This document shows positions 646 through 5,870 of a stretch of 64,000 nucleotides of DNA, piece after piece. Position 1 is the first letter of the stretch. Every line of letters begins with the position of its first letter. The translations under genes and the position numbers were made by a program. The DNA is from Actinomycetota bacterium (GTDB lineage Bacteria; Actinomycetota; Actinomycetes; Streptosporangiales; Streptosporangiaceae), in assembly GCA_027314515.1 (NCBI GenBank), contig DAHVAR010000092.1, forward strand, positions 1 through 64,000. Reading direction: 5' to 3'. The notes beneath the pieces were generated by a model, which saw nothing but the letters and a program-made list of their open reading frames with translations, searched no databases and was not told the DNA's origin.

Positions 646-1407
646 ATGGCCGCAGATGATCATTCCGCTGCAGCCGGCCGGCCCGGCGACGCGCGGCGGA
701 GCGGTCGCGGCCCGTTAGTGGCACTGTGCGTTGCCGCGATCGCCTGCCTGGCCGTCGCGATCACCGCTGGTATCGCGGCGCACGCCCAACTGGTGCGCCA
801 GCCGGACGCGGCGCAGAAGTCCGCGGCAGCCGCGCAAGCCGTTGCCGGCCGGTGGCGCAGCTGGCCGGCCGGCCGCATCTTCCCGGCCACGCTGTCCTAC
901 GACACCCAGCTGCTGACCACCGAAACGGCCAATCGGGTGGGCATATCGGCTGCATCGCGGTGCGCGACCGCACTGGACGCCAACTTCGCCGCGCTTGCCG
1001 CCGGCGATCGGTGCATGGCCGGGCTGCGCGCCGCTTACCTCGACCAGCTGCAAGGCGTCGTGTACACCGTCGGCGTGCTGGCATTCCCGAGCGCCCGCCT
1101 TGCTGCCGCATTCTGGGCAGGCCTGCACTCGGCGGCGGGCGGCGCGGTGCCGCTCCGCGCGCTGGCCCTGCCGGGGACGGCGACCGCCCGGTTCAGCGCA
1201 AGCGCGCGCCAGGCTGCCACCGCGATGCACGACGGACCGTTCGTCGTCCTCACGGTCGCCGGCTACGCCGACGGCCAGCCGGCCGGGGCTGGCCAGGAAC
1301 CGCGCCTGTCCGTCTTCGCGCCCGCAGCCCAGCTCGCCAGCGAGGTGGCCGGCCCGCTCAGCCGTCCGGTCACCGTCGACTGCGCCAGTCCGGCCTGGTC
1401 GTGCTGA
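646..1407 (+). CDS. Membrane-anchored four-cysteine protein, module copy 1
   Basis: 253 residues that I cannot assign to a named family. One hydrophobic segment (about 23-45) after a short basic N-terminus predicts a single-pass protein with its bulk outside the cell. The exported part has cysteines at 106, 123, 246 and 253 (CX16C near the front, CX6C at the very end). The protein at 2723 has the same spacing and shares the signatures RW-x3-PAG-x-IFPA-x-L-x-Y and DGP-x5-TV-x-GY-x-DG-x-P, so the two are paralogues. The stop TGA overlaps the ATG of the following subtilase by one base, which implies translational coupling and a shared function. I see no clear ribosome-binding site before ATG 646. 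Confidence 0.75.
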   Translation: MAADDHSAAAGRPGDARRSGRGPLVALCVAAIACLAVAITAGIAAHAQLVRQPDAAQKSAAAAQAVAGRWRSWPAGRIFPATLSYDTQLLTTETANRVGISAASRCATALDANFAALAAGDRCMAGLRAAYLDQLQGVVYTVGVLAFPSARLAAAFWAGLHSAAGGAVPLRALALPGTATARFSASARQAATAMHDGPFVVLTVAGYADGQPAGAGQEPRLSVFAPAAQLASEVAGPLSRPVTVDCASPAWSC

Positions 1408-2702
1408 TGCGCGCAACCTCCAGGCTCGCTGTGACACTCGGGATGCTGGCGGTCCTGTGCGCCGCGACCGGGACTGATGCGGCGCTGGCGCAGACCGTCG
1501 GCCAGCAGGTCAGGGCCGCGGATCTAGCCACACTGCGCCAGCTCGACGTGCCCGCCGCGTGGCGGGTCAGCAAGGGTGAAGGCGTCACCGTTGCCGTCCT
1601 CGACACCGGCGTCAACGGGAACGCGCCGGGATTGGCGGGCTCGGTCACGTACGGCCCGGATTACACGGCCGGCGCTGACCCGCCTGGCTACCACCCGCCG
1701 CACTTGCACGGCACGTACATCGCCTCGATCATCGCGGCTCACGGCAGCGGCCCTGGCGACTCGGCGGGGATGCTCGGGGTGGCTCCGGATGCGAAGATTC
1801 TCTCGGTGCGGGTGATCCTCGATGATCAGGAGCCCGGCTTCCAGGTCTACAACGAGAACGCCGATTACTACGGCGCGATCGCGGACGGCATCAGGTACGC
1901 CGTCCAGCACGGAGCCGGAGTGATCAACATGTCGCTCGGCAGCACGGTCGCTACCAGGAGTGTCCGGCTCGCGCTCGCCGATGCCGTTGCCCACGGCGTC
2001 GTCGTGGTGGCGTCCGCGGGTAACTCGGGGACCAGCGGCGGCGGTTTCACGGCGTACTCCTATCCGGCGTCCTTCACCGGCGTTATCTCGGTGGCCGCCG
2101 TCACTGCCAGCGGACGCCGTGCGTCGTTCTCCGACCGCAACTCGTCGGTCGTCGTCTGCGCGCCGGGAGTGAACATCGTCGGCGACGGGCCTGGTGGCAG
2201 CTATCTGTCCGGCAGCGGCACCAGCCCTGCCGCCGCGTTCGTCTCCGGAGTCGCTGCGCTCATCAGGTCCTCCTACCCCCGGCTCACGCCGGTCCAGGTG
2301 ATGCAGGCGCTCGTGACATCCACCCGGCGCCGTCCGGCCGGCGGCTACAGCCCGAGCGTCGGATTCGGTGAGGTCGACGCGGCAGCGGCGCTGCGGGCTG
2401 CAGGCCGGCTAGCCGCCGCACCGCCGCCGGCTGGCACGATCGCTGCTGCCGCGCGCTTCGGTACCGGAGCAATCGGTCCGGTCGTCGTGCTACGCCGCAA
2501 CGCCGCCCTCATCGCGCTATTGATCGTCGTCGCGGCAGTTGCCGCGATCGGCTTCATCGCCACCGCCTGGATGCTGGTCGCGCTGGCCAGGCGCCGACGG
2601 CGCAGGCCGTACCCGCCGTTCCCAAGCCCAGCCGCCCCGCCTGGACCAGCGGGTCCGCCAGGACCAGCGGGTCCGGACGTGCCCGCGACGACTGTCAGCT
2701 GA
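1407..2702 (+). CDS. Mycosin-like S8 subtilisin-family serine protease, catalytically intact
   Basis: 431 residues. The start at 1407 follows from a clean signal peptide (1-29, ending ALA-Q) and the one-base TGATG overlap with the upstream gene; the longer open frame before it is the upstream gene read out of phase. The S8 triad is complete: Asp66 in AVLDTGVNG, His101 in LHGTYIAS, Ser273 in GSGTSPAAA, with oxyanion Asn206 in ASAGNSG. A transmembrane segment (about 366-394) is followed by a run of arginines and a Pro/Gly-rich tail. This signal-protease-anchor layout matches mycosins (MycP) of type VII secretion and related actinobacterial membrane subtilases. No ESX ATPase or WXG100 gene is visible here, so a type VII role is only possible, not shown. 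Confidence 0.9.
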   Translation: MRATSRLAVTLGMLAVLCAATGTDAALAQTVGQQVRAADLATLRQLDVPAAWRVSKGEGVTVAVLDTGVNGNAPGLAGSVTYGPDYTAGADPPGYHPPHLHGTYIASIIAAHGSGPGDSAGMLGVAPDAKILSVRVILDDQEPGFQVYNENADYYGAIADGIRYAVQHGAGVINMSLGSTVATRSVRLALADAVAHGVVVVASAGNSGTSGGGFTAYSYPASFTGVISVAAVTASGRRASFSDRNSSVVVCAPGVNIVGDGPGGSYLSGSGTSPAAAFVSGVAALIRSSYPRLTPVQVMQALVTSTRRRPAGGYSPSVGFGEVDAAAALRAAGRLAAAPPPAGTIAAAARFGTGAIGPVVVLRRNAALIALLIVVAAVAAIGFIATAWMLVALARRRRRRPYPPFPSPAAPPGPAGPPGPAGPDVPATTVS

Positions 2703-2722
2703 GCCGACTACGGGAGGATTCG

Positions 2723-3697
2723 ATGACCCCGAGCAGCGAGCCGGAACCGATGACCCCCGATGTGGTTTCCGCGCACATCGCTGCGGGCGGCGATGCCGCA
2801 GCGGATCCAGGCCCGCCGGAGGTCCTGGCCGCCGAGCCTGTGCTGGCCGCCGAATCAGGGCTGGCCGCCGAGCCGGGGCTGCCTGTGAGCCCGGCAGAAC
2901 CGCTCCTGCCGGACAGCCCGGCCGTGGAGTCGCTCGCCATGGACCTGCCTGGCCAGGGCGGCGCCGGCGACAGTCCTGGCCACAGTCCCGGCCGGGAACG
3001 GCGCGGCACGGGACTGACGATGCTGATCACGCTGGTCGTGCTCGGGCTGGTCGCAGTGGCGGGCGGCGGGATGATGCTGGCCATCGAACTCACCCGGCAG
3101 CCGACGAAGGCCGAACTTGCCGCAGCGGTCGCCAAGGAGATCGCCAGTCGCTGGCAGCGCCTGCCAGCCGGCAAGATTTTCCCGGCCGTACTTGGCTACC
3201 AGAACGCTCAGGGCGATCACGCGACGGCCGTGCTGGCCGGGATCGGTCCGGCGGTGCCATGCCGGGCCGCGCTGGCTCCGAGTTCGTGGCGGCAGATACG
3301 CGGCCTCGGTTGCACGGCCATGCTCAGGGCCACCTATGTCGACCCGTCCGGCACCCTGGCCGCGACTGTTGCCATCGGCGCGATGACGTCGGCGGCCAGC
3401 GCGGCGGTCGCCCAGTCGGACCTCACCCCGATGCAGCCGACTGCAGGCTTGTACGCCCTGTCGTTCAGGGGCACCCTGACGGGCAAGTTCTCCAACGCCG
3501 ACCGCGCCATGTCGGGCGCCCTGTTCGATGGCCCCTACATCTTCGCCTATACCGTCGGCTATACCGACGGCATGCCGGGGGCAGCAGCGCGGTCGAACCC
3601 TGAGCTTGCCGCGCTGGGCACCGGGCTGCTCGGGCCGCTGGAGAAGATCATGACAAGTCACGGAGCACCCTGCGCGATGAAGGACATCCGGTGCTGA
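2723..3697 (+). CDS. Membrane-anchored four-cysteine protein, module copy 2
   Basis: 324 residues, paralogous to the protein at 646. The first 95 residues form a cytoplasmic, acidic, Ala/Pro-rich region with imperfect repeats of the type LAAEPxLAAExGL, absent from copy 1. A transmembrane segment follows (about 97-121), then an exported domain with RWQRLPAGKIFPA and DGPYIFAYTVGYTDG. Cysteines at 180, 197, 317 and 324 repeat the CX16C...CX6C pattern of copy 1, suggesting two disulfides. It begins 20 bases after the first subtilase with GGAGG ahead of ATG 2723, and overlaps the second subtilase by 7 bases. Function unknown; conserved pairing with a subtilase suggests a partner, chaperone or substrate-presenting subunit (inference). 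Confidence 0.75.
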   Translation: MTPSSEPEPMTPDVVSAHIAAGGDAAADPGPPEVLAAEPVLAAESGLAAEPGLPVSPAEPLLPDSPAVESLAMDLPGQGGAGDSPGHSPGRERRGTGLTMLITLVVLGLVAVAGGGMMLAIELTRQPTKAELAAAVAKEIASRWQRLPAGKIFPAVLGYQNAQGDHATAVLAGIGPAVPCRAALAPSSWRQIRGLGCTAMLRATYVDPSGTLAATVAIGAMTSAASAAVAQSDLTPMQPTAGLYALSFRGTLTGKFSNADRAMSGALFDGPYIFAYTVGYTDGMPGAAARSNPELAALGTGLLGPLEKIMTSHGAPCAMKDIRC

Positions 3698-4962
3698 CCC
3701 GCGGTCGGACCGCCGCCGTTTTGGCAGTCGGATCGATCATCGCGTTGACGAGCTCGATGGCAGCCAGTGCTGCGCCGGCCATGCCCGGCGCCCGGTCCGG
3801 GCGGCCAGCCGCAGCACGCGTACCGTCCTCCGCCAAGGCGCGGCTGATCAGCGAAACGCTCGGTGCCTGGCAGATCACTAAGGGCGCAGGGGCGACGGTT
3901 GCCGTGCTCGGCACGCCGATCGACGCCGTCACCGGCCTGTCCGGCAAGGTGACCTACGGCCCGGACTTCGCGCCGCTCGCCGGCGCCCCGGCGACGGACA
4001 GCACCGTGCTGGCGTCGCTGATCGCGGGCAGCGGTCCGACGGCGGCGAACCCGTTCGGAACTGTCGGTCGCGCGCCAGGAGCCAGGATTCTCGCCGAGCG
4101 GATCGTGGACTACAACGGCGGTCGCGGTGCCGCCAGGTACCAGCAGGACGGGACGTGGCAGGCCATAATGGCCCGCGCCATTCGCTACGCCGTGAATCAC
4201 GGCGCGAGCGTGATCGTTCCCTTCGAGTCCGGGTACGCCGACACCGCGGCTCTGGACTCTGCTGTGCAGTACGCAATCTCGAAGAACGTCGTCGTGCTCG
4301 GCACTGACGCGGAGTTCGGCAGCACGCCGAATGGGCCTATGTACCCGGACAGCCTGCCCGGAGTGATCAATTTCAGCGGCGTCACCATCAGCGGGCTGCC
4401 GAAACCGCCCAAGTCAGTGCGTTCCCCGGTGAACAACTCGATTCTCGTTACCGCGCCGGACAACATCCTGTTCGCGACAGGACCGGGCAACGCGTCGTAC
4501 TACGCCTATGGGGCGTACTGCGCCACGGCCTGGGTGGCAGGCACCGTGGCGCTGATCAAGTCGGTTTACCCGCAGATAACGCCTGCCGAGGTGGCGCTCG
4601 CGCTTGCCGACTCGGCCAGCTATCACCCGCCGGGCGGATACAACACCACGATCGGCTTCGGGCTCATCAACCCGCTCGGCGCCCTGCACGCGGCTACGGG
4701 CCTGCTGAAGCTGCATCGCACCGCTTCGCCTGGCCAAGGCTCGCTCGCAGCAAGCGCGCGGTTCAGCACTGCCACGCCAGGGGTCATCGACGCTGTCCAG
4801 AATTCGCCGATCGAACTTGGCCTGTACGGTGCCGCCATCGTGGTCGGCGTGATCCTGCTGGCTGTTGCGGCTCGGCTGAACCGCAAGCGGCGCCGGCGTG
4901 AGGCGATGGCGGCCGCGGCGCCGGTCAGCGACGCTGACCAGCCCTCCGCCGCGGTGGGCTGA
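3691..4962 (+). CDS. Subtilase-fold pseudoprotease with C-terminal membrane anchor
   Basis: 423 residues with the same layout as the S8 protease at 1407: signal peptide (about 1-28), subtilase core, transmembrane helix (about 376-396), then a basic tail. GTG 3691 is preceded by AAGGA and overlaps the upstream gene by 7 bases. Aligning the conserved blocks by eye, every catalytic position is changed: Asp to Gly74 (AVLGTPID), His to Asp103 (TDSTVLAS), the oxyanion Asn to Glu208 (TDAEFG) and Ser to Tyr276 (YGAYCATA). The scaffold motifs VTYGPD, AIRYAV, GGYN-x3-GFG and the anchor are retained, and the frame is intact over 424 codons. This is therefore a preserved non-catalytic paralogue rather than decay. 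A regulatory or structural role beside the active protease is inference. Confidence 0.85.
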   Translation: MLTRGRTAAVLAVGSIIALTSSMAASAAPAMPGARSGRPAAARVPSSAKARLISETLGAWQITKGAGATVAVLGTPIDAVTGLSGKVTYGPDFAPLAGAPATDSTVLASLIAGSGPTAANPFGTVGRAPGARILAERIVDYNGGRGAARYQQDGTWQAIMARAIRYAVNHGASVIVPFESGYADTAALDSAVQYAISKNVVVLGTDAEFGSTPNGPMYPDSLPGVINFSGVTISGLPKPPKSVRSPVNNSILVTAPDNILFATGPGNASYYAYGAYCATAWVAGTVALIKSVYPQITPAEVALALADSASYHPPGGYNTTIGFGLINPLGALHAATGLLKLHRTASPGQGSLAASARFSTATPGVIDAVQNSPIELGLYGAAIVVGVILLAVAARLNRKRRRREAMAAAAPVSDADQPSAAVG

Positions 4963-5354: not shown

Positions 5355-5870
5355 ATGACCGCACAGAGGACTCCGGCCAAGACCGTAACGAACTACGGGC
5401 TGCTCCAGAGACGGGCAACGTTCGCCGCAGGCGGCGGACTCGTCGCGCTGATCATCGGCGTAGCTGTCGGCCACTTCACGGTCGGTATCTCCGGCTACGG
5501 CTCCGTCTCCGCTCTGCAGGCCAACCAACTGTGCTCCACCGGCATCGGCAGCCTCGTCCAGGGCTTCGACTCCACGGTGTCATCTGCCTGCTCCACCGCT
5601 GGTACCGTCGCCTCGATTCACGGTGCGCTGGTAGGTTTCGGCTGGTTCTTCCTCATCGTCGGGCTGCTGGGCATCGGCCTGGCGGTATGGGGAAAGTCGC
5701 AGAACGCCGTCGCGACGCCCGCAACCCTCACTGCTCCCTCGCAGCCGAGCACCCCGTTTACGCCTAGCGTGCCGGTACCGCCACAGCCGGGGACAACTCA
5801 GACGCAATCCGCATTCTTCACGCCCGAGGTACCCGACACTCCTTCGGCGGACGGCCCCTACGCTCAGTAA
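5355..5870 (+). CDS. Two-pass membrane protein with Pro/Ser/Thr-rich tail
   Basis: 171 residues, family not recognised. A hydrophobic helix (about 23-43) is followed by a roughly 45-residue loop with two cysteines (60 and 79), likely a disulfide on the outer face. A second helix follows (about 90-112), then a 59-residue Pro/Thr/Ser-rich tail. Both termini are predicted cytoplasmic. Third-position GC and the intact frame support a real gene. No close partner gene: it lies alone between the subtilase module and a PIN-domain relic. Confidence 0.65.
   Translation: MTAQRTPAKTVTNYGLLQRRATFAAGGGLVALIIGVAVGHFTVGISGYGSVSALQANQLCSTGIGSLVQGFDSTVSSACSTAGTVASIHGALVGFGWFFLIVGLLGIGLAVWGKSQNAVATPATLTAPSQPSTPFTPSVPVPPQPGTTQTQSAFFTPEVPDTPSADGPYAQ

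Follow-up and report, generated by a model that had tools for sequence, protein, structure and literature searches.

In mycobacteria, the mycosin MycP is indispensable and gives stability to the ESX membrane complex, and secretion does not need the protease activity of MycP1 (PMC5082899). The essential role of mycosins in the type VII secretion system (T7SS) is separate from their protease activity, and its nature has been left open (PMC5082899). Among subtilases without activity, the pseudo-subtilases CspC and CspA of Clostridioides difficile form a signalling heterodimer (PMC12880746). These dead subtilases signal via protein contacts (PMC12880746, PMC4619724) and belong to one pathway with the active CspB. 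Here I describe a locus in which a live and a dead subtilase are encoded in succession, each with a membrane protein. By analogy, CspA and CspC appear to offer the nearest parallel for a dead subtilase that signals, and they resemble the present case in that dead and live subtilases would act in one pathway. Unlike the present proteins, CspA and CspC are soluble spore proteins from another subtilase branch and have no such membrane partner; the NCBIfam CspC and CspBA models score the live subtilase of the locus (g2) weakly and give the dead one (g4) no score. In the open-licence literature on mycosins together with pseudoproteases or a missing triad, no description of this arrangement was found.

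Gene layout of the locus

The window, i.e. the whole stretch of DNA analysed here, is the first 64 kb of a 73.6-kb contig (C19) in a 5.86-Mb, 280-contig draft genome that is 97.9% complete. At positions 646-4962, it was found that four co-directional genes, all on the plus strand, form two successive units. Each unit consists of a single-pass membrane protein with two cysteine pairs (MEM) and a tail-anchored S8 subtilase (SUB). The active unit begins with g1 (646-1407), encoding a MEM of 253 aa with one N-terminal transmembrane segment (TM) and an ectodomain with two cysteine pairs (C106/C123 and C246/C253); two further cysteines lie within the TM. Its active SUB, g2 (1407-2702), is a 431-aa mycosin-like S8 subtilase with a signal segment and a C-terminal TM anchor. 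The pseudo unit consists of g3 (2723-3697), a MEM of 324 aa with one N-terminal TM and an ectodomain with the cysteine pairs C180/C197 and C317/C324, and the pseudoenzyme SUB g4 (3691-4962), 423 aa in length with a predicted mycosin-like fold. A hydrophobic, signal-like segment at the N-terminus (residues 7-25) and a C-terminal TM (372-390) are retained in g4. Since the genes are co-directional, with a 1-base overlap between g1 and g2, a 20-base gap between g2 and g3, and a 7-base overlap between g3 and g4, they probably form a single transcript. The gene calls and the alignment of g4 with g2 reproduced all coordinates, residues and overlaps given in a preliminary description of this DNA.

Mycosin-like subtilases in a genome with no recognisable T7SS

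Both SUBs match peptidase family S8 (PF00082) above the cut-off of 21.8 bits, g2 with 165.8 bits and g4 with 32.4 bits. With TIGR03921, the equivalog model for T7SS mycosins, g2 scores 254.2 bits and g4 146.7 bits, both under the cut-off of 278.75. By these scores, the SUBs appear nearest to T7SS mycosins, so that the earlier label of S8 subtilase holds and can be refined to mycosin-like. They are like the mycosins MycP1, MycP3 and MycP5 in having an S8 subtilase fold, a signal segment and a C-terminal TM. They are unlike them in being paired with a membrane protein that is probably PknH-like, in falling below the TIGR03921 cut-off and in belonging to a genome with no detected EccB or WXG100; g4 is further distinguished by the absence of any catalytic residue.

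Are g2 and g4 ordinary T7SS mycosins that serve an ESX system elsewhere in the genome? Their mycosin-like TIGR03921 scores would fit, but neither reaches the cut-off. EccB was not detected in the window's genome or in five congeners by a search that was positive in 71 of 151 genomes of the family. WXG100 was likewise not detected in the window's genome; at 97.9% completeness, neither absence from this genome is absolute. Because neither EccB nor WXG100 was detectable, the window's genome has no recognisable T7SS as judged by these two markers. Of the 119 family genomes with a match to g4, 63 have no EccB, and a search around the units found no T7SS context, the neighbours being moeZ, helicases or unrelated genes. 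Service to a distant ESX system is thus a very improbable explanation and one already largely refuted.

The predicted structure of g4 has a mean pLDDT of 79, with values above 90 across much of the core. Its best Foldseek match is MycP5 in the ESX-5 complex (7np7, E 1.8e-18), and the comparison with MycP1 (4m1z) gives a Z of 31.5, level with many subtilisins, while identity to the solved MycP chains is 21-28%. These matches to MycP5, MycP1 and subtilisins indicate that the fold is kept: g4 is predicted to have an intact mycosin/subtilisin core, in agreement with the retained core that had been proposed for the second subtilase.

Loss of the catalytic apparatus

In g2, the catalytic residues Asp66 (codon at 1602-1604), His101 (1707-1709) and Ser273 (2223-2225) and the oxyanion Asn206 (2022-2024) are all intact. 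In the alignment of g4 to g2, these positions are occupied by Gly74 (3910-3912), Asp103 (3997-3999), Tyr276 (4516-4518) and Glu208 (4312-4314), respectively; all codons are on the plus strand. Thus, the Asp-His-Ser triad and the oxyanion Asn are absent from g4, and the alignment confirms the replacement at four positions that had been read from the sequence beforehand. A triad moved elsewhere in g4, which would have undone that reading, was ruled out: the conserved columns of Psi1, the clade of dead SUBs to which g4 belongs, include no His or Ser, and the triad is lost.

Among the active SUBs, 80 columns are at least 90% conserved. In Psi1, 57 of them are kept alike and 18 are lost, including all four catalytic or oxyanion positions and, among their neighbours, S176, G205 and T272. 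By my own calculation, the chance that all four catalytic columns would be among 18 of 80 columns lost at random is about 0.002. The loss in Psi1 appears from these alignments to be centred on the catalytic apparatus, the catalytic positions varying freely and the core being retained. Residues conserved only in Psi1 include W281, N327, P328 and G330, and none lies at the four catalytic positions.

It may be asked whether g4 is a decoy or an inhibitor, one that would limit g2 by binding either to this enzyme or to its substrates and cleaving neither. A dead paralogue with a predicted intact fold, encoded right behind the live enzyme across overlaps of 1 and 7 bases and a gap of 20, is what this reading calls for. 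A substrate decoy, however, should retain the cleft, and S176, G205 and neighbouring residues, invariant in the active SUBs, have been lost. I regard the decoy or inhibitor as distinctly improbable.

Selection

By the Nei-Gojobori method, the comparison of G000 with the nearest genome (G024) gave a dN/dS of 0.19 for g2 (bootstrap 0.11-0.31), 0.23 for g4 (bootstrap 0.14-0.38), 0.28 for g1 and 0.36 for g3. Within genera, the dN/dS of second SUBs is 0.18-0.50 for dead and 0.31-0.86 for live ones, with the rows of locus L087, which compare unit 1 with unit 2 through an artefact of ORF order, omitted; the dead SUBs are no more relaxed.

Another possibility is that g4 is a decaying relic in which stop codons have not yet gathered. 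The freedom of its catalytic positions to vary is in keeping with decay. Against this, the g4 value of 0.23, with an upper bound of 0.38, indicates purifying selection and not the neutral drift that would have spoken against the preliminary description; the frames are open across genera and families; and Psi1 and the active SUBs share their conservation at the 57 core columns. A relic has next to no probability and is refuted by the present data. On the sequence evidence, g4 appears to be a genuine conserved pseudoenzyme under purifying selection, with proteolytic inactivity predicted. The second subtilase thus stands as the real pseudoenzyme it was taken for: its catalytic residues are gone, its fold is kept, it is under purifying selection and it is present in relatives. 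That selection keeps a dead SUB suggests that it does a non-cutting job.

Distribution of MEM-SUB units

All four genes are conserved in G024, with 96% identity for g2 and 94% for g4. The four-gene order with a dead second SUB is also present in a congener, G079 (g4 56% identical), and in a genome of another genus, G019. Conservation of the order in relatives had been left as a check, and it was found in G024, G079 and other genera. Thus, of the three outcomes that the preliminary description had named as refuting it (a module absent from relatives, neutral dN/dS, a moved triad), none was observed. The letters at the four positions of the dead second SUB differ among G024, G079 and G019 (GDAY, NDAY and SEGG, respectively). 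Because the four-gene order and the dead second SUB recur across genera without internal stops, neither chance nor faulty sequencing accounts for the state of g4.

Among named genomes, 79 loci were retrieved; because the query was the g4-family alignment, this set favours relatives of g4. In the annotated fetched loci, MEM-SUB tandems of two or three units occur across Streptosporangiaceae and Thermomonosporaceae, in Nonomuraea, Streptosporangium, Microbispora, Planotetraspora, Acrocarpospora, Actinomadura and other genera. moeZ is near 63 loci, a count in which a few loci duplicate one place, and the window's genome itself has an additional live MEM-SUB unit adjoining moeZ on contig C170. Units are also present in Streptomyces, where the MEMs are distant and the gene context is different. 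Where units stand in a row, the first SUB has DHNS; the second has DHNS in many genera and is dead in others. The second SUB is live in Nonomuraea, Streptosporangium and most Actinomadura, and dead in Microbispora, Acrocarpospora, Planotetraspora and the window's genus. Thus, the claim that the second subtilase is a pseudoenzyme is upheld for the window's genus, and its state varies by genus. The pseudoenzyme module is widely distributed, more generally than the preliminary description could see.

Longer rows were also observed. At L050:5712-12177, three successive MEM-SUB units are live, live and dead, and likewise in Actinomadura craniellae (L129). In Rhizohabitans arisaemae (L109:4181-8092), three dead subtilases stand in a row with one detected MEM and with live units on both sides. 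Because Rhizohabitans has three dead SUBs and one detected MEM, a strict 1:1 MEM-SUB pairing is not universal.

Most Psi1 loci have an active unit immediately upstream; the fetched stretches of L065, L074 and L058 have a Psi1 unit and no active unit. This bears on the reading in which g3-g4 is independent of the active unit: a surface receptor or binding pair, with a ligand (a peptide or a wall fragment, for instance) bound in the former substrate cleft of g4, and adjacent to the active unit only by descent. The Psi1 units alone in the fetched stretch (L065 and L074) accord with it, as do the differences between genera in and around the old cleft, which fit diverse ligands, and CspC is described as a ligand-sensing pseudo-subtilase (PMC6636752). 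On the other hand, most Psi1 units are directly behind an active unit, and no conserved set of cleft residues was found, W281, N327, P328 and G330 being off the four catalytic positions. An independent receptor is therefore unlikely, if a more serious candidate than the decoy or inhibitor.

Origins of the dead subtilases

In SUB trees computed without the catalytic columns, dead SUBs occupy three positions: Psi1, Psi2 and a lone protein of the window's genome (L055). Psi1 is an old group of 16 dead subtilases with 100/100 support; besides g4, it has members from several MAGs and from Rhizohabitans, Actinomadura craniellae and Sphaerisporangium perillae. Psi2 has 18 dead SUBs in the full tree and 10 in the reduced tree (100/99 support); it includes Microbispora, Planotetraspora, Acrocarpospora and others, and is nested in the otherwise active, moeZ-linked second-unit lineage. 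Three changes between live and dead are needed on the SUB tree and across the whole 5-95% bootstrap range. Catalysis has therefore been lost in more than one lineage. Forcing Psi1 and Psi2 together costs 29.6 log units with an AU p of 0.058, so that a single origin is not formally rejected. Such an origin would be hard to maintain, because three Psi1 proteins in the Rhizohabitans locus stand side by side with a live first unit and with a live unit of the second lineage, and because the Psi2 MEMs fall within the second-unit MEM clade of the MEM tree.

The unit clades of the SUB tree reappear in the MEM tree, which is what would be expected of MEMs inherited together with their own SUBs. Identity between the two units of the window is 36% for g1/g3 and 37% for g2/g4. 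By their tree positions, g2 and g4 are members of deep paralogous clades, and the duplication is ancient. Of the tandemly duplicated module described earlier, the two-unit order stands; a recent tandem duplication is rejected by both the SUB and the MEM trees, in which the units are old paralogues.

The lone protein is encoded on another contig of the window's genome (C265; L055:5942-8326, minus strand). It is mycosin-like, about 794 aa in length, with S/Q/D/S at the four positions, has no MEM partner and adjoins an SAM hydroxide adenosyltransferase. It is probably a second pseudo-mycosin in this genome.

The MEM proteins

Neither g1 nor g3 matched a Pfam or NCBIfam family, and a MEM profile search found no solved-structure relative by sequence. 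The AlphaFold2 model of the g3 ectodomain has pLDDT values mostly above 90 and gave no significant Foldseek match (best E 0.022). In a second structural comparison (VIA), the PknH ectodomain (4esq) came first, with Z 8.6 over 137 residues, rmsd 4.2 and 9% identity; the matches after it have Z from 7.3 to 6.0, with an Rv0999 orthologue, RseB and TiME at about 7. PF14032 (PknH_C) matched 3 of 20 MEM members weakly and neither g1 nor g3, and a few MEM homologues have weak matches to PknH_C or DUF7373. A PknH-like sensor fold of the MEM ectodomain is likely on the basis of the model, and g1 would share it by homology to g3. The MEM ectodomain may resemble the extracellular PknH_C sensor domains, the match of its model to 4esq being modest; MEM differs in having no kinase domain.

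In the second-unit lineage, 84 of 98 MEM columns are conserved between the partners of live and dead SUBs, with four consensus letters changed. Such conservation of the MEM partner irrespective of the state of its SUB speaks for a MEM-SUB relation that is independent of cleavage. MEM conservation in this lineage barely shifts upon SUB death, which makes it less likely that a MEM serves its own SUB as a substrate or as an inhibitor at the active site.

Proposed role

From the sequences, the operon structure and the congruent trees, I infer a topology in which the two proteins of each MEM-SUB pair would form a unit at the external surface of the cytoplasmic membrane. The MEM would cross the membrane once and have a PknH-like ectodomain stabilised by disulfides, and the SUB would be a mycosin-like subtilase exported via its signal segment and held by its C-terminal anchor. 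As with T7SS mycosins, the SUB may have a structural role separate from proteolysis, exerted with a MEM instead of Ecc proteins. Old duplications may then have led to specialisation, the first unit retaining cleavage and the pseudo unit g3-g4 retaining a structural or regulatory role alone. Most likely, g3-g4 would be a non-catalytic subunit that joins the active unit and adjusts how it assembles, how substrates reach it or how active it is. The dead site, the kept fold, the purifying selection, the conserved neighbourhood and the loss in more than one lineage are features of the data; MEM-SUB binding, assembly of the two units with each other and regulation of g2 are what I infer from them. 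That SUB and MEM have a non-catalytic structural or regulatory surface role, to which dead units are confined, probably as partners of the active unit, is a proposition whose chances I put as evenly balanced. The match of the g4 model to MycP5 within the ESX-5 complex, the dispensable protease activity of MycP1 and the CspA-CspC heterodimer favour it; the Psi1 units with no active unit in their fetched stretch, the unequal SUB and MEM numbers in Rhizohabitans, the AU result and the modest MEM fold match weigh against it.

A broader proposal, to which I give somewhat less than an even chance, is that in Streptosporangiales the MEM-mycosin units form a surface machine that is independent of the T7SS and can do without proteolysis, and that pseudo-mycosins became fixed in it on more than one occasion as subunits of the live protease, in a structural or regulatory capacity. 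If true, it would be a natural separation of the two mycosin functions. Here, outside the T7SS, mycosin relatives of more than one lineage have become non-catalytic and have kept fold, anchor, partner and selection; bacterial pseudo-subtilases, of which few are known, thereby gain a membrane-bound example. Because live and dead versions of the unit can be compared in culturable genera, the non-proteolytic role is directly testable.

Two minor features of the locus were also observed. The part of g3 before its TM (window 2723-2990) encodes a low-complexity N-terminus rich in Ala, Pro and Glu, with indel differences from G024. Beyond g4, window positions 5355-5870 encode a 171-aa protein with two hydrophobic stretches and cysteines and no Pfam match; a gene of the same length lies at the same place in G024 (L046:12506-13021).
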